39,048 nucleotides of DNA from Dysgonamonadaceae bacterium (GTDB lineage: Bacteria; Bacteroidota; Bacteroidia; Bacteroidales; Azobacteroidaceae): NCBI GenBank assembly GCA_031275735.1, contig JAISOJ010000029.1, positions 1-39,048 on the forward strand. The letters run 5' to 3'. Positions 28,501-39,048 of the stretch are shown one piece after another (the first letter of the stretch is position 1; each line of letters starts with the position of its first letter). A program made the position numbers and the translations under genes. Under the pieces are notes generated by a model. That model had not been told where the DNA came from. It searched no databases and worked only from the letters and a program-made list of their open reading frames with translations.

Positions 28501-31107
28501 AAAATGTTGACTTTTTCGACAGACAAATCCTCGTATGAAACAGGCGAAGATGTTACGGTTATTATTCCGGCGTCGGCTGGAGGAAATGCTTTGGTGGTAT
28601 TGGAAAACGGTTCGACAGTATTAAAACGGGAGTGGGTGAGATTATCTGGTCAGGAAGATACGAAATACGTCTTTAAAGCCGCGCCTGCAATGAGTCCTAA
28701 TTTTTATGTTCATATCAGCTTATTACAACCACACGCACAGACAGTCAACGATTTGCCTATCCGGATGTACGGAGTGGTTCCCGTGTTTATTTCCAATAAA
28801 GAATCCGTGTTGAATCCGCAGATAAACATGCCGGACGTCCTTCGCCCCGAAACGGAATTTACGGTAGAAGTCAGCGAAAAAGAAGGCAAACCGATGACTT
28901 ATACCTTGGCTGTGGTGGACGATGGCTTACTTGATTTAACGAATTTCAAAACACCTAATCCGTGGTCGGAATTTTATGCCCGCGAGGCTTTGGGAATCCG
29001 TACTTGGGATATGTTTGATGATGTATTAGGCGCTTTTGGCGGTAAATATTCGGCCTTGTTCAGCGTGGGCGGAGACGAAGATATGAAGCTTGCCAATACG
29101 AAAGCCAATCGTTTCAAACCGGTTGTGAAATATTTAGGACCGTTTGCTTTGAATAAGGGAGAAAAAAAGAAGCATAAAATAACATTGCCGGTTTATGTAG
29201 GCTCCGTTCGTACGATGATTGTGGCAGGACAAGACGGCGCTTACGGAAAAGCGGAAAAAACAACTCCGGTTCGTTCGCCCTTGATGCTATTGTCTTCTTT
29301 GCCGAGAGTCGTAAGCACGAATGAAGAAATCAGTCTTCCGGTCAATATTTTTGCTATGGAAAATTCGGTAAAAAACGTGTCGGTCAAAGTGGAAACCAAC
29401 GGTTTGCTCCAAATAGCAGGTGAAAACAATCAATCGATTCGTTTTACTAAACCCGGCGACGAGATGATGTATTTTCGAATGAGAACTACCTCGAAAACCG
29501 GTGTCGGAAAAGTAACTGTTACAGCTAGCGGCGGCGGAAAAATATCGAAAGAAACCATCGAAATAGATGTGCGCAACCCTAATCCGGCGGTTATTTTATC
29601 GGAATACCAATTGTTGGACGCCGGAAAAACCGGAAATTTCAATTACCGGATTACCGGAACTTCGGATGACGATTGGGTGAAACTCGAAGTTTCGAGAATT
29701 CCTTCGGTAGATATCGTTCGCCGTTTGGATTTCTTGTACAATTATGGGAATTATTGTTCCGAACAATTGACGTCGACCGCTTTACCTTTATTATACATTA
29801 CTCAGTTCAAAGACGTGGATAATGTTGAGACGGAAACTATCAAAAAAAATATCCGCGAAGCGATTCGAAGCTTATATGGACGGCAATTATCTAACGGCGG
29901 TATTGTTTATTGGCCGGGACAAAATCAGGCCAATGAATGGATTACTTCGTATGCAGGTAGTTTCCTGGTATTAGCGAAAGAAAAAGGTTTTGAAGTAAAT
30001 GAAGGCGTATTGAATCGCTGGAAAGCCTATCAATCTCAAGAAGCCCGAAATTGGTCGCCCGCTCCGGTTAATGATTATATCGCTAAAGAATCTACTTTCC
30101 AACAGGCTTTCCGCCTTTATAGTTTGGCTTTGGCCGATGCTCCCGAATTAGGAGCGATGAACCGGTTGAAAGAAACGAAAGACCTTTTCTTGCAGTCCCG
30201 GTGGCTACTGGCTACAGCGTATGCTCTCAGTGGAAAAATGCAACCGGCGGAAGAATTGATATTCAATATTTCGTCCGACATTGCGCCTTATTATTCGAGT
30301 TATACTTACGGTTCTTCCGAACGTGACGAATCTTTGATTCTTCAAGCTTTAATAGAAATGGGGCGTATGGATGCAGCTTTCAAACAAGCGCAGAAAATAG
30401 CAAAAAAACTCTCGAAACAAACGTATTTCGATACGCAATCGACGGCCTTTGCTCTGATGTCTATGGGAAATTTAGCCGAAAAAATATCCGGCACCCTTGA
30501 ATTTAATTGGACGCTAAACGGAAAAAATCAAGACGAAGTGAAATCGGGTAAAGCCTCTTACCAGATCCAATTACCTTCTAAAGCGGACGAAGGAAATCTT
30601 TCAATTACCAATAAAGGTCGCGGATCGCTTTATGTGAATTTAGTTTCGAAATCACGGCCTATCAACGATACGTTTCCATCTGTAGCAAACAATTTACATT
30701 TGGATGTTTCCTATGCCGATTTATCCGGCAAAACGATAAATGTATCGAAAATCAAACAAGGAACAGATTTTACCGCTATAATTAAAGTTTCGAATATCAG
30801 CGCTGTGGACGATTACACCGATTTGGCTTTGACGCACATCATTCCTTCGGGTTGGGAAATTTTTAACGAACGGATGACTTCCGGAGATAACGTTACGGCG
30901 TCGGATGTTTATACGTATCGTGATGTACGTGACGACCGCGTATTAACATATTTCGACTTGCCGAGGGGAAAAGCTAAAGTATTCAAAGTTCGCTTGCAAG
31001 CCTCGTATGCCGGTTCGTTTGTTTTGCCGGCTATTGCCTGTGAAGCCATGTACAATACGTCGGCGCAGGCAAGAACCCAGGCGAGTAGGGTAGTGGTGAT
31101 TCAATAA
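25516..31107 (+). CDS. Alpha-2-macroglobulin family lipoprotein with thioester motif
   Basis: A giant envelope protein of 1863 residues. I place the start at ATG 25516 because it directly precedes a lipoprotein signal peptide (KRSKIINRFSFGILHSLFLF ... LLSLFLSC, lipobox LFLSC), anchoring the protein to a membrane facing the periplasm or surface. The MG2 signature GYIYGERGVWRPGDTLHV lies near residue 640, the A2M core with MLLSSLPRVVSTNEEISLPV near 1260, and the thioester motif CSEQ at about 1414-1417 (NYCSEQLTSTALPLLYI), followed by the thioester-domain helices (LSNGGIVYWPGQ and on) and a C-terminal receptor-like domain. Bacterial homologues trap attacking proteases covalently. Many are paired with penicillin-binding protein 1C; no such gene follows here. 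It is a single gene behind a terminator. Confidence 0.92.
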   Translation: MKRSKIINRFSFGILHSLFLFYVIICLLSLFLSCSKKEFVPDSEFVSYINAYTGGLVSSSSTIRIELVNGQADVESGSATKEKLFSFSPSIKGKAYWLDNRTIEFVPDKGALKNGETYQAQFKLGKVISVDKRHEIFHFSFAVEEKSIEILVRPVNISDPALATVTGEIHLNEKFELDLIQKAFQVQMGDKQALSPEIEATGDAHIFRFLLRDIPRKKTDIDLEITVDGTVLGIDKIVSQTLNIPALNVFKVLSTELISEPENGVRITFSYPLSTTQDLRGLIIIPELSNYTTQLKDNIVAIYFDRSGKEKITVNVDKGIKNTQGEKMEETFSKALSLEILKPQVEILKSGSIIPHSNNLTLPFRAVNLSAVDLKIIQIYENNILPFLQRNTLNGSYELRRAGRMVYKKTIRLDNPSSPKLQDWQNYSIDLSKIIRQDPGSIYRIELSFKQSYSTYSCDKKSEKTVSEDASEMVTPLDVSVDEREENYWDSPYPEYDNSDYDWELYDWEERNNPCHPSYYMLSERKASRNVIMSDIGVIAKTNSAGKWWVAVSNLLDTKPVSGVDITFYNYQLQAVASAKTDVNGFAVVESKGKLFALVASANGQKTYLRLVEGEDNSLSRFDVGGKIIEKGLRGYIYGERGVWRPGDTLHVTFILYDLEKKIPENHPVSLEVYNSQGQFFTKQILTKGVNGFYTFHIPTPAEAPTGLWNAYIKIGGTSFHKSFRIETIKPNRLKINLALTGKHLDASSGSVPASLTSSWLTGATAHGLEVKVEMTLSKASTQFEGYENYIFNNPATDFSFSQSELFNGTLNNEGSAKFDMKMPYAGNAPGMLNANIVCRVFEPGGDASIYTENIPFSPFVSYVGLNLNQEKDKYIETDTDHRFQVVTVNADGKPVDRDNLEYRIYKIGWSWWWENNNEAFSNYISNSSFKPVVVGKLKTINGKTGFNFNLQYPDWGRFLVYVKDKDSGHAVGGTVYIDWPMWRGRSNKTDPDGIKMLTFSTDKSSYETGEDVTVIIPASAGGNALVVLENGSTVLKREWVRLSGQEDTKYVFKAAPAMSPNFYVHISLLQPHAQTVNDLPIRMYGVVPVFISNKESVLNPQINMPDVLRPETEFTVEVSEKEGKPMTYTLAVVDDGLLDLTNFKTPNPWSEFYAREALGIRTWDMFDDVLGAFGGKYSALFSVGGDEDMKLANTKANRFKPVVKYLGPFALNKGEKKKHKITLPVYVGSVRTMIVAGQDGAYGKAEKTTPVRSPLMLLSSLPRVVSTNEEISLPVNIFAMENSVKNVSVKVETNGLLQIAGENNQSIRFTKPGDEMMYFRMRTTSKTGVGKVTVTASGGGKISKETIEIDVRNPNPAVILSEYQLLDAGKTGNFNYRITGTSDDDWVKLEVSRIPSVDIVRRLDFLYNYGNYCSEQLTSTALPLLYITQFKDVDNVETETIKKNIREAIRSLYGRQLSNGGIVYWPGQNQANEWITSYAGSFLVLAKEKGFEVNEGVLNRWKAYQSQEARNWSPAPVNDYIAKESTFQQAFRLYSLALADAPELGAMNRLKETKDLFLQSRWLLATAYALSGKMQPAEELIFNISSDIAPYYSSYTYGSSERDESLILQALIEMGRMDAAFKQAQKIAKKLSKQTYFDTQSTAFALMSMGNLAEKISGTLEFNWTLNGKNQDEVKSGKASYQIQLPSKADEGNLSITNKGRGSLYVNLVSKSRPINDTFPSVANNLHLDVSYADLSGKTINVSKIKQGTDFTAIIKVSNISAVDDYTDLALTHIIPSGWEIFNERMTSGDNVTASDVYTYRDVRDDRVLTYFDLPRGKAKVFKVRLQASYAGSFVLPAIACEAMYNTSAQARTQASRVVVIQ

Positions 31108-31171
31108 ATCACCCTATCCTTCAACCGTAAATAATATTTTCTTTTTCGTTCCGGTTTTTAGGGCAGATTAA

Positions 31172-31540
31172 TTACCTTTTTCTACTATTTTCCAACATTT
31201 CGCTTCTTTTTTTCTTATACAGTTCCAATTGTTCGGCAGTTAAAATTCCGGAAAAAGCCGTTTCTTTTTCCTTTTCCAAAGCTAACATGGTTTCCCGGAT
31301 TTTTTCGCGGTCACCCTCGGAAGATTGGAAGATAACCTGTTGTGCTTTAGCAAATAATAGATTGACTGAATCAACAGGGGCAATTTGTTCCGATGTTAAA
31401 TTTAATTCTTTAATCATCCATTCCGTCGTCATTTTAGCGCGTTCTTCGACGCTCATTTTTTGTCCTCCGCGGGCATTTTGAGCGTTCGCTAAAGAAAAAA
31501 CCATTGACAGTAATACTGTTACACACAAGATTCGTTTCAT
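31172..31540 (-). CDS. Small secreted Spy/DUF4890-like protein
   Basis: A 122-residue protein with a signal peptide (KRILCVTVLLSMVFSLANAQ, cleavage near residue 20) and a short, highly charged helical body. It carries two LTxEQ-type motifs (ELNLTSEQIAPVD near 46 and GILTAEQLELYKKKRSEM near 98) like periplasmic Spy/CpxP-type proteins and the Bacteroidetes DUF4890 group. These motifs are usually found in helical cradle proteins with chaperone or metal-sensing roles, but the function here is not established. It sits 53 bp downstream of atpG on the same strand and converges with the macroglobulin gene. Confidence 0.7.
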   Translation of the reverse strand: MKRILCVTVLLSMVFSLANAQNARGGQKMSVEERAKMTTEWMIKELNLTSEQIAPVDSVNLLFAKAQQVIFQSSEGDREKIRETMLALEKEKETAFSGILTAEQLELYKKKRSEMLENSRKR

Positions 31541-31593
31541 AATAAATCAGAATTAAAATATTTATAATAGACTTTATACAAGCAAATCGCGCC

Positions 31594-32469
31594 CTATTTC
31601 AACGCTTCCGAGCCGCCGATAATATCCAGCAATTCGCTCGTTATCGCTTGTTGGCGCTGTTTATTAAACTGGATGGTCAACCCATCCAGAATCTCGTCGG
31701 CATTGTCGGTAGCAATCTGCATCGCCACTGTACGGGCTGCCTGTTCCGCCGCTGCCGAATCCAGCAGTATGGCGTATATCTTGCTTCGTAAAGACTTTGG
31801 AATTAAGGTGTTTAACAATGTTTCCCTGTCCGGTTCGATAAGGTAGTCCGTCGAAATGTTTTTCCCGTTCGACTTATCCGTTAAAATCACCGGCAGGAAA
31901 ATTTCTTCCATCGGCACTTGAACTGCCGTACTCTTGAAATGGTTGTAAATCAACTCCACCCGATCGACTTTATTCGTGAGAAAATCGGCGATCAACCCGT
32001 CGGCGATGGCTTTGGCTCCGTCGAAATGAGGCTTGTCTATCAACGAAAGGTAACTTCCCGCGATTTCAACCGGAAAAACCCATTTCCGCACCGCTTCTTC
32101 CACTTTTTTTCCTATCGGATAAACGGCTGTTTCACAGTTCAATTTCCGGTATTTTTCCAAGGCTTTCGCCAATAAGCGGATAATGTTGGAATTGAAAGCG
32201 CCGCATAAACTGGAATTGGACGAAAGGACTACGATAGCTACCCGTTTCACTTCGCGCGTTTCCGATAGGGGTGAGTTGAATTCTTCCGAGGCGGACGAAA
32301 GAAAACGGTTCAATATGTCGGTCAAGCGGTTTTCGTAAGGCAAAAACCGTTCGATTTGGTATTGCGCCTTGCGAAGCTTTGCCGAAGCCACCATTTTCAT
32401 CGCCGCCGTAATTTTCTGCGTCGATTTTACCGAAGCTATACGTCCTTTTATTTCTTTTAATGAAGCCAT
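31594..32469 (-). CDS. atpG: ATP synthase F1 subunit gamma
   Basis: The central rotor stalk of the F1 motor, 291 residues. The N-terminal helix IKGRIASVKSTQKITAAMKM (6-25) and the C-terminal helix ending NKQRQQAITSELLDIIGGSE are the two strands of the rotating coiled coil; SSNSSLCGAFNSNIIRLL (about 88-105) is the conserved central region. It is the last gene of the ATP synthase operon. The gap to atpA contains one copy of the 21-nt palindrome. Confidence 0.97.
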   Translation of the reverse strand: MASLKEIKGRIASVKSTQKITAAMKMVASAKLRKAQYQIERFLPYENRLTDILNRFLSSASEEFNSPLSETREVKRVAIVVLSSNSSLCGAFNSNIIRLLAKALEKYRKLNCETAVYPIGKKVEEAVRKWVFPVEIAGSYLSLIDKPHFDGAKAIADGLIADFLTNKVDRVELIYNHFKSTAVQVPMEEIFLPVILTDKSNGKNISTDYLIEPDRETLLNTLIPKSLRSKIYAILLDSAAAEQAARTVAMQIATDNADEILDGLTIQFNKQRQQAITSELLDIIGGSEALK

Positions 32470-32496
32470 GTTTTTAAATTAAGAATGAAACGGGGG

Positions 32497-32517
32497 ATTG
32501 CGGGTCTAGCCCGTAAT
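32497..32517. repeat. 21-nt palindrome, copy 1 (atpA-atpG gap)
   Basis: The sequence has the pattern ATTGCGGG-N5-CCCGTAAT, 8-bp arms with one G-U-type mismatch and a TCTAG loop. Same architecture as the copies at 35657-35677 and 36515-36535. It lies in the 75-bp gap between the atpA stop and the atpG start, where it would form a hairpin in the polycistronic mRNA without a T-tract. Confidence 0.8.
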
Positions 32518-32544
32518 GACAACTTTTTTCCAAACCCCAAAGCG

Positions 32545-34125
32545 TCATTGAAACCCTTTGACTAATTCCGTCGCCGTCTGAACAAGCAATTGCTCTACTT
32601 CTTCGTTGAGAACGCCGCTTTTGAGTACATCCAATACTTCTTTGCGGTATTTTACTTCCAGTATTTCGAGAAATTCTTTAGCAAATTCATTGACTTTTTC
32701 TACCGGCACGTCATACAGTAAACCTTTGGTTCCTGCGTAGATAATGGCAATTTCCTTCTCTACCGGCAACGGATGGTATTGCGGCTGAATAAGCAAAGCG
32801 GCATTTTTCTTTCCTTTATCCAAAGTTTTTCGCGTAACGGCGTCCATGTCGCCTCCGAATTTGGTAAATGCTTCCAGTTCCCTGTATTGCGCCTGGTCGG
32901 TCTTCAATGTACCGGCAATTTTTTTCATTGCCTTGATCTGGGCGTTTCCTCCGACTCTTGATACGGAGATGCCGACATTGATTGCGGGACGGATACCCGC
33001 GTTAAACAGGTTGGTTTCAAGGAAAATCTGTCCGTCGGTAATGGAAATCACGTTGGTCGGAATGTAGGCGGAAATATCGCCGGCTTGCGTTTCGATAATC
33101 GGCAATGCCGTCAGCGAGCCGCCTCCCTTGACAAAAGGTTTCAGATTTTCCGGCAAATCGTTCATTTGGGCGGCTACTTCATCGTTGTTGATGATTTTGG
33201 CGGCGCGCTCCAACAAGCGGGAATGGAGATAGAAAATATCGCCCGGATATGCTTCCCGACCGGAAGGGCGGCGAAGAATCAACGATACTTCGCGGTAAGA
33301 AACGGCTTGTTTGGATAAATCGTCGTAGATGACCAGGGCGGCGCGTCCCGTATCGCGGAAAAACTCCCCGATGGCAGCGCCTGCAAACGGTGCATAAAAC
33401 CGCAAAGCCGCCGGATCGGATGCTGAAGCGGCTACGACAACGGTGTATTCGAGCGCTCCTTTTTCCCTCAGGGTGTTGACGATATTGGCAATTGTCGAGC
33501 CTTTTTGCCCGATGGCGACGTAGATGCAGTAGACCGGCTTTCCGGCCAGGTAATTTTCCCGCTGATTGATGATGGTGTCGATGCCGATAGCGGTTTTCCC
33601 GGTTTGGCGGTCGCCGATGATTAACTCGCGTTGTCCGCGACCGATGGGAATCATGGCGTCAATGGCAATGATACCCGTTTGCAGCGGTTCATTTACGGGC
33701 TGACGGAAAATCACGCCGGGCGCTTTGCGTTCCAGCGGCATTTCCAGCAACTGTCCGTCGATCGATCCTTTGCCGTCGATCGCTTGTCCCAACGGATTGA
33801 TGACCCGCCCCAAAAGACCTTCGCCGGCGCGAATGGAAGCGATGCGGCCGGTGCGTTTCACCGTATCGCCTTCTTTGATCTGGTCGGTATGCCCCAACAG
33901 TACGGCGCCGACATTGTCTTCTTCCAGATTCATCACGACGCCCATTTCGCCGTTCTCAAATTGAAGAAGTTCTCCGGATTCGGCATTACTCAAACCGAAA
34001 ATGCGGACTACGCCGTCGCTGACCTGAAGTACTACGCCCACTTCTTCAAATTTTACGCGGGTGTCGATGCCTTCGAGTTGCATTTTCAGTATTTCCGAAA
34101 CTTCACTTGCTTTTATATCTGGCAT
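32545..34125 (-). CDS. atpA: ATP synthase F1 subunit alpha
   Basis: The regulatory nucleotide-binding subunit of F1, 526 residues from ATG 34125 ([16 protein letters not shown]). An upstream in-frame start at 34173 would add 16 residues translated from the repeat array and is rejected. Visible motifs are the Walker A GDRQTGKT (171-178) and the [20 protein letters not shown] block; [13 protein letters not shown] is the alpha signature carrying the catalytic arginine finger. Full length. It lies between atpH and atpG as usual in Bacteroidetes. Confidence 0.97.
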
Positions 34126-34140
34126 AATTTTTTTTTTTAG

Positions 34141-34235
34141 TAAACGAGTAGACAAGACTTGTTTACTTGTCACTCGTTTACTTGTTTACTCGTTTACTTG
34201 TTTACTTGTCACTTGTTTACTTGTCACTTGTTTAC
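34141..34235. repeat. Array of 7-8-nt units between atpH and atpA
   Basis: Read on the minus strand, about a dozen units of the types AAGTAAAC, AAGTGAC, GAGTAAAC and GAGTGAC follow each other from the end of atpH almost to the atpA ribosome-binding region. The atpH stop codon (TGA in AAC AAG TGA) is itself part of a unit. Units are imperfect and of mixed 7- and 8-nt length, with no spacers, so this is not a CRISPR. Confidence 0.85.
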
Positions 34236-34763
34236 TAATTCCAGCCGTAGCCGGTTCAATTGATTTTTCACACTTGCATCTAAACGAAAGTCTTCGATTT
34301 CCAGAATGAATCCTCCGACAATGTTTTCGTCGATTGTTGCCGCAAAATCTACCTGTTTGTCTTTTTCCTTGACAACAAGGTCAATAAGCGCTTTTTGCAT
34401 GTCAATATCCGCCTGTTCCGTTGTGGTCAGCTTGATAATCGTCCTGTTTTTTTCTTTTCGATAAACTTTGTCATACACCAAAGCGATGTGCTGCATGTAG
34501 TGTCCCCGTCCGTTCTTAATCACTAAGCGAACGGCCTGTTGACAGGCGTCGCTTGGCGTTTTGCCGGCGGCGGTGATCAGGACGTTTATCTTTTCGGCGG
34601 AAGGAACGGTCGGGTCTTCCAAAACTTTTCCCAGTAAGGGAAAAGCGGTGAATTGTTCTGACAGGGCCTTCATTTCCGCGTGAAGACGCTCTTCTTCGCC
34701 TCGTCCTGCAGCATATTGAAAAATAGCTTTGGCATAGCGTGTCGAAATTGTTCCTACATTCAT
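34224..34763 (-). CDS. atpH: ATP synthase subunit delta (OSCP)
   Basis: The peripheral-stalk cap that binds the top of F1, 179 residues, normal for the family. The N-terminal helix bundle starts NVGTISTRYAKAIFQYAAGR, and the C-terminal part ends with the conserved IDENIVGGFILEIEDFRLDA and SVKNQLNRLRLELVNK. It starts 4 bp after the atpF stop. Its final codons and stop are drawn from the short-repeat array that fills the gap to atpA, so the natural C-terminus may have been slightly altered. Confidence 0.95.
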   Translation of the reverse strand: MNVGTISTRYAKAIFQYAAGRGEEERLHAEMKALSEQFTAFPLLGKVLEDPTVPSAEKINVLITAAGKTPSDACQQAVRLVIKNGRGHYMQHIALVYDKVYRKEKNRTIIKLTTTEQADIDMQKALIDLVVKEKDKQVDFAATIDENIVGGFILEIEDFRLDASVKNQLNRLRLELVNK

Positions 34764-34767
34764 TTTT

Positions 34768-35262
34768 TTAATTTTTCTGCGCTTCTTCGATCAGCTTATC
34801 GACTAATTCGCGTTGGGCGGCTTGATTGTCCAGGTTTCTGCGGAGGATTTTTTCCGCAATGTCGATGGAAAGCGCTGCAACCTGATTCCGTATATCGCGA
34901 ATCGCCATTTCTTTTTCTTTTTGAATGGTAATTTTTGCTTCGGCAATCAGTTTGGCGGCTTCCCTGGCTGCCTGTTCTTTGGCTTCTCCGATAATCTTAT
35001 TCCGCACTTCGTTGGCGTCTTTCAGGATGCGAATTTCTTCTTCCCTGGTCCGGTGCAAAATCCGGTCGCCTTCTTCCCTGATTCCGGCAAGACGGTCGTT
35101 TGCCGCTTTCGCCGCTTCCAACGATTTGTCGATAAAGGCTTTCCGTTCATCTACCATTTTTACGATAATCGGAAAACCGTATTTGGCAAGCACGAAGAAG
35201 ACTACTCCAAAGGAGAGGAGCATCCAAAACAAGAGTCCGGGATCCGGTGTTAATAACGACAT
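34768..35262 (-). CDS. atpF: ATP synthase F0 subunit b
   Basis: The peripheral-stalk subunit, 164 residues: a single N-terminal transmembrane helix (GLLFWMLLSFGVVFFVLAKY, about 9-28) followed by a long charged coiled coil (DERKAFIDKSLEAAKAANDR onward) that reaches up to delta. Standard length and layout; 10 bp after atpE and 4 bp before atpH. Confidence 0.97.
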   Translation of the reverse strand: MSLLTPDPGLLFWMLLSFGVVFFVLAKYGFPIIVKMVDERKAFIDKSLEAAKAANDRLAGIREEGDRILHRTREEEIRILKDANEVRNKIIGEAKEQAAREAAKLIAEAKITIQKEKEMAIRDIRNQVAALSIDIAEKILRRNLDNQAAQRELVDKLIEEAQKN

Positions 35263-35272
35263 GGTTTGTTAT

Positions 35273-35521
35273 TTATAAAAGGAATCCACAAACTACAATG
35301 GCGAAAAGAGCAGCTCCTTCCACCAAAGCGGCGGCAATAATCATGTTTGTACGGATGTCTCCCGTTGCTTCCGGTTGACGTGCAATCCCTTCCATTGCCG
35401 AGGCGCCGATTTTCCCGATACCCAAACCTGCGCCAATAACTGCTAATCCTGCTCCCAATCCTGCGCCGAATTTTGCTAAACCGGCTCCTGCTGCTGCCTG
35501 TAATAAAATTGTCATTAACAT
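35273..35521 (-). CDS. atpE: ATP synthase F0 subunit c
   Basis: The rotor-ring proteolipid, 82 residues, two transmembrane helices joined by the polar loop ARQPEA (47-52). The ion-binding carboxylate is Glu68 in ALVEGAALFAIV. Glycine follows the glutamate, and the Na+-type ES/ET pair is absent, so proton coupling is expected. The start may be Met1 or Met3 (ATG at 35521 or 35515). The 216-bp gap upstream to atpB is long for this operon and is filled with repeats. Confidence 0.97.
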   Translation of the reverse strand: MLMTILLQAAAGAGLAKFGAGLGAGLAVIGAGLGIGKIGASAMEGIARQPEATGDIRTNMIIAAALVEGAALFAIVVCGFLL

Positions 35522-35737
35522 AATTTTAATAATTTAATTTTTTAATTCCTAAATCCCCTGGGGGGACTTTGGAGTTGTGATATTTGTTTTTATATTTAAT
35601 TTTCTATTTCATAATAAGTTAACGGGTAAACAAGTGACGAGCGACAGGCGGCCTTCATTGCGGACTTGATCCGCAATCTCCTTGTTTACTTGTTTTCGAG
35701 TGTTTATTAAACATGCATGTTTCATCATAATCATTCG
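35522..35737. repeat. Repeat cluster between atpB and atpE
   Basis: Three kinds of short repeat are packed here. An AAATCCCC/GGGGACTT palindrome with a two-base spacer lies near 35550-35570. Short 7-nt-type units (GTAAAC, AAGTGACG, AGCGAC) lie at about 35617-35645 and again at 35681-35705 (CTTGTTTACTTGTTT). Between them is the 21-nt palindrome copy 2 at 35657-35677. No gene or clear regulatory site is present. Confidence 0.75.
35657..35677. repeat. 21-nt palindrome, copy 2 (atpB-atpE gap)
   Basis: ATTGCGGA-CTTGA-TCCGCAAT: perfect 8-bp arms around a 5-nt loop. The substitution pair (G to A in one arm, C to T in the other) relative to the other copies preserves pairing. Runs of the 7-8-nt units flank it on both sides. 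Confidence 0.85.
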
Positions 35738-36901
35738 TTAGCCAATGTTTTCGGATTTAGGGGCATGATGCGCTTCCACCTGCGAGAGGCCGATAAAGAC
35801 CGCCGAGAGCATCGTGAATACGTAAGCCTGTATGTAGGCGACCAGTAATTCCACGCAATCAATGAATACCGTCATGATAACCGAAAGCGCCGTCATTCCA
35901 TAATTCATTGCCGTTCCCAAACTTACGGTTAAAAATATAATGCAGGTCAACCCCAGTACAATGGCGTGTCCGGCCAGAATATTCGCAAATAATCGAATCA
36001 TCAATGCAAATGGCTTGGTAAACAGCCCGACAATTTCAATTGCCGGCATAAGCGGTACGGGAACTTTCAGCCACCAGGGGACGTCGGGCCAGAATATTTC
36101 TTTCCAGTATTCCCTGCTTCCGAATACGTTCACGATAATAAAAGTGCATAATGCCAGTATACAGGTGATTGCGATATTTCCCGTCACGTTGGCTCCGCCC
36201 GGAAAAACGGGTATCAGTCCCAAAAGGTTATTGATGATGATAAAAAAGAATACCGTCAGCAAATAAGGGGTGTAACGTCTGTAATTCTTTCCGATGCAAG
36301 GTTTTATCACATCGTCCACAATACTCGTGATAACCAGTTCCACAAAGGCGACGAATCCTTTGGGTGAAGCGTTTTCCGGTTTTCCTTCCCGTTTTTTGTA
36401 CCAGTTGGCACAGGAGAGTATCAGGATAATCAGGAGAATACTGCTCATTACCAGCGAAGCGGCGTTTTTCGTCAGGGAAAAATCCCAGGGACGGACTTCT
36501 TCGTAATCCCTGCCGTTGCGGGCTTGACCCGCAATCTTCTCCACAATTTTACCTTTATAAGGCCCGTCTTGAGCAATGTAAAAACCCTTGTATGCTTCGT
36601 GTCCGTGATGAAATTTCGACGATGGAAATACGTGCCAGCCGCTTTCCTTGCTTTTCACAATGACGGGCAATGGAATGGAAATGTGCCGGCGGCCGAAAGA
36701 GGTGATGTGCCAGTCGTATCCGTCGCTTACGTGGTCGAGAATCAATTCGCGGACATTCAATTCCGGTTTTTCTCCTTCCTGATGAGTTTCTTCCGAATAA
36801 ACGTTCGTTCCCGCCAGGAGGAACAAAAGAAAGAGAAGTCCTTTTACTCTTAAAGAGATTGTATCCAAAGGACTTTTAAGACAGTTTCCTGTTTTTTTCA
36901 T
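35738..36901 (-). CDS. atpB: ATP synthase F0 subunit a, carrying an apparent palindrome-derived insert
   Basis: The membrane stator that forms the proton half-channels, 387 residues from ATG 36901. An earlier in-frame ATG at 36925 gives eight extra residues inside atpI and is less likely. A signal-like helix (GLLFLLFLLAGTNVYSEE) and an exported domain typical of Bacteroidetes AtpB (DWHITSFGRRHISIPLPVIV, then SGWHVFPSSKFHHG) precede about five or six membrane helices. The essential arginine is Arg303 in ALMIRLFANILAGHA, and the last helices end AVFIGLSQVEAHH. Between GKIVEK and EEVRPWDFSLTKN stands IAGQARNGRDY (residues 123-133), encoded by the 21-nt palindrome; relatives as I recall them have only a few residues here. 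The insert faces the periplasm, away from the channel. Confidence 0.93.
   Translation of the reverse strand: MKKTGNCLKSPLDTISLRVKGLLFLLFLLAGTNVYSEETHQEGEKPELNVRELILDHVSDGYDWHITSFGRRHISIPLPVIVKSKESGWHVFPSSKFHHGHEAYKGFYIAQDGPYKGKIVEKIAGQARNGRDYEEVRPWDFSLTKNAASLVMSSILLIILILSCANWYKKREGKPENASPKGFVAFVELVITSIVDDVIKPCIGKNYRRYTPYLLTVFFFIIINNLLGLIPVFPGGANVTGNIAITCILALCTFIIVNVFGSREYWKEIFWPDVPWWLKVPVPLMPAIEIVGLFTKPFALMIRLFANILAGHAIVLGLTCIIFLTVSLGTAMNYGMTALSVIMTVFIDCVELLVAYIQAYVFTMLSAVFIGLSQVEAHHAPKSENIG
36515..36535. repeat. 21-nt palindrome, copy 3, in frame inside atpB
   Basis: On the minus strand ATTGCGGG-TCAAG-CCCGCAAC, 8-bp arms with one mismatch. It is read in frame as IAGQARN within the exported domain of subunit a. 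Same pattern as the two intergenic copies. Confidence 0.8.
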
Positions 36902-37274
36902 TTCTTGCCAGGTAAATGGTATCAAACATTAAATAAATAAAATAAAGCGCGACAAAAATCAGCACGAAGCGTTTCGTCTCCACTTTGACCGCCAAGGCAT
37001 AAATCACTATAAATACAAGTGACAGAAGTATTTTTCCGACTTTCAATCCCAAAAAGAGATTGACGGATTGACGGGGTGTAATGCTTTTGCTTTTCCTGTT
37101 TGTAATCAGCATTACCAGGATTTCGTACAGAAAGAAAAAAGCAATTGCCGCGCCTGTTCCCGCAAGGGGAGGCGTGTCCGTAAAAATCAGCTTTCCCCCG
37201 CGTATTAAACCTGTGATTAACACTACATTCAGGAGTATCAGGTAGAGTATGTATTTATTATTGAGTGATATCAT
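36876..37274 (-). CDS. Small membrane protein of the ATP synthase operon (AtpI-like)
   Basis: A 132-residue integral membrane protein with four predicted helices (YILYLILLNVVLITGLI; GAAIAFFFLYEILVMLI; LKVGKILLSLVFIVIYALAV; FVLIFVALYFIYLMFDTIYL). A gene of this size stands between atpC and atpB in other Bacteroidetes ATP synthase operons, and by position and topology it corresponds to AtpI, thought to help c-ring assembly or Mg2+ supply. Sequence similarity to AtpI is not obvious to me, so no symbol is given. Its 3' end overlaps the atpB start by 26 bp, implying coupled translation. Confidence 0.75.
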   Translation of the reverse strand: MISLNNKYILYLILLNVVLITGLIRGGKLIFTDTPPLAGTGAAIAFFFLYEILVMLITNRKSKSITPRQSVNLFLGLKVGKILLSLVFIVIYALAVKVETKRFVLIFVALYFIYLMFDTIYLARNEKNRKLS

Positions 37275-37275
37275 A

Positions 37276-37509
37276 CTATTCTACACAAACTGATACGATA
37301 TTTTTTTTAGTTTCCACAAATCCTCCGTTGATAGTCAGTTCCGTTTCTTTTCCTTCGACGCTGTAAGTCAATTTGCCCTTGTCCAGGGCGGAAATAATCG
37401 GGGCATGACGGTTCAAAATCGTAAACAGACCGTTCACACCGGGCAAAGTCACCGATTCGGCGTTTCCGGCATAGATTATTTTTTCGGGAGAAACAATTTC
37501 CAGTTTCAT
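37276..37509 (-). CDS. atpC: ATP synthase F1 subunit epsilon (short form)
   Basis: A 77-residue protein matching only the N-terminal beta-sandwich of epsilon (LEIVSPEKIIYAGNAESVTL, then PGVNGLFTILNRHAPIISAL and ELTINGGFVETKKNIVSV). The C-terminal helical hairpin that inhibits ATP hydrolysis in many bacteria is absent, as is usual in Bacteroidetes, so this enzyme cannot be autoinhibited by that route. It lies 1 bp before the AtpI-like gene and 55 bp after atpD, with short-repeat units in that gap. Confidence 0.95.
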   Translation of the reverse strand: MKLEIVSPEKIIYAGNAESVTLPGVNGLFTILNRHAPIISALDKGKLTYSVEGKETELTINGGFVETKKNIVSVCVE

Positions 37510-37515
37510 TTTTTT

Positions 37516-39048
<1,533 letters not shown>

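Follow-up and report, generated by a model that had tools for sequence, protein, structure and literature searches.

The atpB gene of this Dysgonamonadaceae bacterium, which encodes ATP synthase subunit a, carries a short palindrome within its coding sequence, raising the question of whether a repeat has entered a conserved gene in frame and, if so, what kind of repeat it is. In the window (the whole stretch of 39,048 nucleotides that was analysed), atpB was recognised by its frame and a Pfam match and lies on the minus strand at 35738–36901, counted from its first ATG at 36901. The stop-to-stop frame (35738–36925, 396 residues) is open through the palindrome and matches PF00119 (ATP-synt_A) over residues 163–379 (E = 2.3e-57). 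The palindrome itself (36515–36535, minus strand), characterised by position search, alignment with the genomic copies and codons, has the CGTC-REP-like form GTTGCGGG-CTTGA-CCCGCAAT and is read as IAGQARN. Alignment of 50 AtpB sequences and the codons delimit a whole block, IAGQARNGRDY (36503–36535, minus strand), between GKIVEK and EEVRPW at approximately residues 132–142 of the stop-to-stop frame, upstream of the PF00119 domain and probably within an exported, tolerant domain of the protein.

The original prediction had placed the same palindrome in two gaps of the ATP synthase operon as well as in atpB, and all three copies were located with no more than two mismatches. Pattern search recovered a solo copy with two mismatches in the atpB–atpE gap (35657–35677, minus strand) and a further solo copy, with one mismatch to the stem pattern, just past the end of the atpA frame (32545–34173) at 32497–32517 on the plus strand. 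The atpB copy differs at one position from ATTGCGGG-N5-CCCGCAAT; its first stem pair is gone through loss of the end base, and its tag is lost, the degenerate GGCA standing where GACA or GACG is usual. At up to three mismatches the window contained four matches to the pattern compared to 0.30 expected, and none of 100 shuffles reached four; the fourth match (2722–2742, three mismatches) is probably due to chance. The atpB–atpE gap measures 225 bases, as against 23–90 bases in 17 of the 20 other genomes in which the script found atpE, all lengths resting on a crude start call. No Rfam match at gathering thresholds was present in 30000–39048.

A total of 28 sites at up to two mismatches were detected in the genome, a 76% complete draft of 114 contigs, and these were spread over many contigs; the reversed-pattern control gave none. 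The palindrome is therefore not rare in its own genome; rarity was the outcome that the original prediction had named as speaking against an insertion. At up to one mismatch, matches were present in 23 of 58 genomes including the window's own (333 in G027, 174 in G006, 139 in G010 and none in many others), and the reversed control matched in only one of the 58 (G015, one site). G027 and a contig of Candidatus Symbiothrix dinenymphae have 2,419 identical bases in common.

The stem (ATTGCGGG / CCCGCAAT) comprises 8 bp beginning with AT and encloses a loop of 5 nt. A tag, GACA or GACG, followed the core in all 30 distinct exact copies of the G010 loci and all 31 of the G027 loci, as well as in eight of nine copies in the window genome, although the tag was no part of the search pattern behind these counts. 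The ninth copy (L048) has GTC on the opposite side, with its loop in inverted orientation with respect to the repeat. Opposite the tag, copies in G010 and G027 mostly read AGGGG; AGGGG and AGGAG correspond to the CYCC tail reversed, and on the other strand the element takes the form [CT]GTC-ATTGCGGG-N5-CCCGCAAT-CCCCT. A short unpaired tail is thus present, mostly CYCC and not the CCA that prevails in published families. In close pairs the tags tended to point outward (18 of 24 pairs in G027, drawn from 100 of 312 places, and 7 of 7 in G010, drawn from 68 exact places).

According to the sections of the published description available to us, REPs of the CGTC superfamily have a CGTC end (or TGTC/CCTC) outside the stem, a stem of 8–9 bp starting from AT, a loop of 4–5 nt, a short and mostly CCA unpaired tail, a predominance of head-head dimers and no associated transposase gene (PMC3733652). 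Judged by its sequence, the element has the anatomy of this superfamily, and comparison of its 8-bp stem and 5-nt loop with the published lengths indicates that the family is probably CGTC-2. The same sections equate Rickettsia RPE-4 with the CGTC-4 REP and RPE-6 with the CGTC-1 REP, and treat RPE-1 as a longer, separate element; the analogy with Rickettsia palindromic elements drawn in the original prediction was apt, and closer than supposed, RPE-4 and RPE-6 being members of the superfamily whose anatomy the element shares (PMC3733652). They also record CGTC-REPs from Bacteroidetes and, in several species, REPs within genes, so that events of this type have a precedent, although the original prediction knew of no description for a Bacteroidetes subunit a (PMC3733652). 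Searches of the open-licence literature found no description of the element or its peptide in these bacteria.

AtpB was found in 50 of the 58 genomes and all 50 sequences were aligned, some of them partial (e.g. that of G016). Residues of the palindrome occurred in the turn after GKIVE in three sequences only, those of the window genome G000 (KIAGQARNGRDYEE), G031 (KIASQARNDRDFNEADYE) and G010 (SIGGIAGQARNDSRGGVRPPTDNMPQE), and were absent from this turn in the other 47; the same residues are thus not a general property of relatives, which would have argued against an insertion. The AtpB of G010 has a second copy, IAGQARNDGHAQ, just past the hydrophobic N-terminus. Within the genus the turn mostly takes the LASGEE form, and its length varies in more distant families. 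Relative to TLASG relatives, the net gain was 7 residues (21 nt) in the window, 12 in G031 and about 20 in G010, the first of these values arising because K and 11 residues replace five. The roughly eleven added residues that had been predicted are indeed present as IAGQARNGRDY, but the net gain is 7, and by the alignment the atpB event, strictly, combines an insertion with the replacement of a short turn.

Of the 21 palindrome bases, 20 matched the genomic repeat in G000, 20 in G031 and all 21 in G010. Fifteen bases that stand between two GAT triplets in G031 are lacking in G000, possibly as a result of a later deletion in the window genome. The block exceeds the bare palindrome in both G031 (net gain of 12 residues) and G010 (about 20), and no target duplication was readable at the AtpB blocks. 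The turn of G013 (L012) reads KIAVAGEEEPGE in a genome without the palindrome at up to one mismatch; more speculatively, it could be what decay has left of such an insertion.

In a tree of AtpB from which the block had been removed, G000 was sister to G016 (96/85) and then to G017 (95/97), both blockless, while G031 grouped with G029 and G006 (88/85, weak) and G010 with G027 and G005 (100/99), neither of which has the block. The position of the G010 block among blockless G027 and G005 is most simply explained by a separate event, and by tree and alignment the turn appears to have been hit separately at least twice. The blocks of G000 and G031 may have one origin, by descent with losses or by exchange, or may be separate. 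It is conceivable, if somewhat doubtful, that simple descent does not apply to these two blocks and that they reflect either a single origin followed by recombination between species or a turn that acts as a preferred target. Such a reading draws on the KIVEKIA and trailing DYE common to both, on their separation in the tree (the G031 grouping being the weak one) and on the 20 codons before the block, where G000 shares 85% identity with G031 and 68% with G016. However, this upstream comparison spans 60 bases and is reversed downstream (88% for G000–G016, 75% for G000–G031), the G016 gene is partial, and an ancestral insertion subsequently lost in G016 and G017 fits equally well.

Copies inside reading frames were also encountered in many other proteins. 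Six of the 28 sites in the window genome fall in stop-to-stop frames of at least 300 residues, namely a GH43 frame (near its start), AtpB, RsmF, two HsdR-like frames and C114:897, the last of which is doubtful (two mismatches, odd loop) and lay outside the Pfam scan. Of 130 distinct copies across the named loci, 54 are found in frames of at least 130 residues; in-gene counts of this type rest on long open frames, which select survivors, and the rate of gene breakage is not readable from them. Pfam matches were obtained for 25 of 30 scanned frames (five of the 30 from the window genome) and not for the other five, the 30 being taken from 35 frames picked by length and position with the window genome included. 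In G010, 12 of 30 examined copies were located in frames of at least 300 residues, and 10 of the 12 lie over 20 residues past the frame start; eight of these 10 were scanned, the frame that holds the copy having a Pfam match in every case, and the other two are those in AtpB.

A homologue could be aligned on both sides of the copy in PurH, PAD, peptidase M3, MiaB, MnmE and AtpB. Against solved or related proteins, MnmE has an in-frame insertion of 15 residues; MiaB of G010 has one of 20 residues containing two copies, and in PurH the copy lies within 45 unaligned query residues. In G027, Pfam matches flank the copy in a C26 peptidase and an amidohydrolase, and do so at a looser distance in QueA and a class I tRNA synthetase, which we take to be IleRS by its DUF5915; the G027 loci L294–L297 represent one copy and are not independent. 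By these alignments, in-frame copies occur in MnmE, PurH and MiaB of the genus, and probably in further housekeeping genes. A ketoacyl synthase frame (L127:4453-5727) holds three copies, at residues 93, 252 and 392. Two close opposite copies, both in frame, are read as HCGLD[PS]QS and then IAGQARND in L138 and L161, and a similar pair in the other order is present in MiaB of G010. Translated in all six frames, the element is stop-free in four (forward IAGQARND and LRVKPAMT, reverse VIAGLTRN and HCGLDPQS), and all four occur among the in-gene copies, as expected for passive survival.

The insertion in atpB is real, in frame and CGTC-REP-like, and the lineage is one in which copies often lie within genes. 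We consider it highly likely that the block is a solo CGTC-tagged REP (8-bp stem, 5-nt loop, probably CGTC-2) which entered atpB in an ancestral bacterium and was passively tolerated. It would have persisted there since the reading frame stayed intact and the short turn ahead of the first membrane helix can accommodate additional residues. With four stop-free frames, many hits within genes would be survivable whenever the added length is a multiple of three, and selection would presumably purge the remaining insertions, which break genes. The block is presumably translated and the turn presumably exposed; alignments to solved ATP synthases start at residue 144 or later and do not reach the block. 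Passive in-frame survival of this kind, rather than a gain of function, would account for the use of four reading frames, for targets that are unrelated and for the decayed state of the copy in atpB.

It is very unlikely that the block has been co-opted, either altering the ATP synthase or forming an mRNA hairpin that regulates atpB translation. A computed fold of the 61-nt atpB RNA (−16.8 kcal/mol, z = −2.97, with 3 of 200 shuffles as good) points to a stable hairpin, and the turn was struck at least twice, both of which would be in keeping with such a role. However, the two operon copies outside atpB resembled same-strand shuffles (z = −1.16 and 0.45), the window copy is devoid of its end base and tag, the block is missing in 47 of 50 genomes, and the presence of the element in unrelated proteins in four frames argues for tolerance; a regulatory role for the hairpin is not supported. 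More improbable still is an artefact of assembly or binning, for which a draft of 114 contigs and 76% completeness would give some room, given the intact frame, a block at the same place in two other genomes with different flanks, and a palindrome found on many contigs. Natural variation in turn length that is palindromic by chance is the least credible reading, since, for all that this length varies elsewhere (e.g. KIAVAGEEEPGE in G013), the block matches the repeat at 20/21 (G000, G031) or 21/21 (G010) bases and the reversed control found 0 sites in the window genome.

Beyond these relatives, an exact search of the GTDB collection for a 27-base form of the element yielded at least 119 stretches. 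Titles among the 80 loci listed included Bacteroidota, Campylobacterota and Sulfurovum, Clostridia, Endomicrobium and Parendomicrobium, Desulfuromonadales, Coriobacteriales, Hydromonas, Gastranaerophilales and Ignavibacteria; the carriers are mostly MAGs, many apparently from the termite gut, among which single cases may be mis-binned. Going by these titles, exact copies occur in MAGs assigned to several phyla. The host of the atpB insertion is itself a probable insect-gut bacterium. Separately, dimers in G010 (L261) and G027 (L305) were seen between frames of matching size (496/497 and 360 residues), possibly representing an old shared intergenic copy.

Eight viral contigs contained the 24-base form. 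One phage copy is situated in a lambda-type portal gene (PF05136; PHROG portal), where it forms a 48-nt in-frame insertion compared to a 65% identical relative that shows a 48-base gap. A small phage gene by the major head gene, with head and tail genes as neighbours, holds the element in frame as LRVKPAMT, with one copy in each of two contigs (L237:12528 and L241) and two in a third (L238:3938 and 4007). In the four remaining viral contigs the copy fell within no long frame. Phage genes such as these, in which the element occurs once or twice, offer insertion events open to study. A wider interpretation, in which one exact, transposase-less palindrome spreads across phyla as a ready-made in-frame protein linker, carried between hosts by phages, whose genes also hold in-frame copies, and with the AtpB turn as a repeated and independent landing site, is in our view unlikely. 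The present analysis adds the in-frame copies in MnmE, PurH, MiaB and phage genes, the two or more hits to the AtpB turn and the exact copies in MAGs of several phyla. CGTC palindromes that colonise proteins in frame are thereby described for a Bacteroidales genus, in one genome of which 10 of 30 examined copies lie deep in long frames.

What moves CGTC-REPs was left open by Di Nocera, De Gregorio and Rocco 2013, in the sections available (PMC3733652); copy number ranges from 0 to 333 across 33 sequenced relatives, and a comparison of their gene content could address this. PF01797 matched in 9 of 20 genomes searched (8 above cut-off). A Y1 transposase match was present in 8 of 11 genomes with at least 16 copies compared to 1 of the other 9, a comparison which ignores kinship and includes the weak match of the window genome below cut-off; G027, the genome with the highest copy number, had no PF01797 match. 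Y1 being commoner in palindrome-rich genomes, a transposase may act from elsewhere. Loci were available for 30 of the 33 Y1_Tnp matches, some cut by contig ends, and a true copy was seen in 1 of these 30, approximately 1.15 kb from the gene; three further pattern matches, in other loci, were weak and not true copies. All 10 scanned Y1 proteins scored best as IS200/IS605 transposases (8 above the cut-off of that model), and none reached the REP_Tyr_transpos cut-off. No RAYT was found beside copies. A PF01797/RAYT protein as the dedicated transposase was rejected, as copies do not flank the genes and the 10 scanned proteins are IS200/IS605-like.

Inverted ends similar to GGCTGTCTCAAAAG / CTTTTGAGACAGCC (at up to three mismatches) enclosed 15 of the 28 window-genome sites, e.g. 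L002, L003, L035, L047, L109 and L113. Additionally, a script flagged 15 of 23 listed window-genome copies for a neighbouring second [CT]GTC palindrome, usually CGTC-ATCCCGC...GCGGGAT-CTCC; visual inspection adds L110, and in L046, L102 and L111 the partner is a different one. With about half of the sites between inverted ends, mostly with the partner palindrome, this arrangement suggests that part of the family may spread as an IS-borne MITE. The atpB copy had no terminal inverted repeats within 130 bases at up to three mismatches, and neither inverted ends nor a second palindrome accompanied the copies in atpB, at 32497 or at 35657.

Compared with known systems, the family resembles IS-derived MITEs in the inverted ends around those 15 of 28 sites and differs from them in that such ends are missing at the three operon copies. 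REPINs are grouped with GTAG REPs and RAYT transposases. With the GTAG REPs that accompany RAYT, the element shares small palindromes, often in inverted pairs, mostly intergenic and sometimes intragenic, but its tag is GTC and not GTAG and its copies have no RAYT beside them. It is closest to the CGTC-REPs, the family being probably CGTC-2: although the tail is CYCC here as opposed to the mostly CCA tail there, and the present bacteria and genes are absent from the part of the published text available, the [CT]GTC end, the 8-bp stem starting with AT, the 5-nt loop, the unpaired tail, the mostly tag-outward dimers, the lack of an adjacent transposase gene and the occurrence of some intragenic copies are held in common (PMC3733652). 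From the Rickettsia palindromic elements it is set apart by belonging to another CGTC family by stem and loop, and by a host of a Bacteroidales lineage, not Rickettsiales; with them it shares the presence of short in-frame palindromes in protein genes, here those for AtpB, MnmE, PurH, MiaB and the phage portal.
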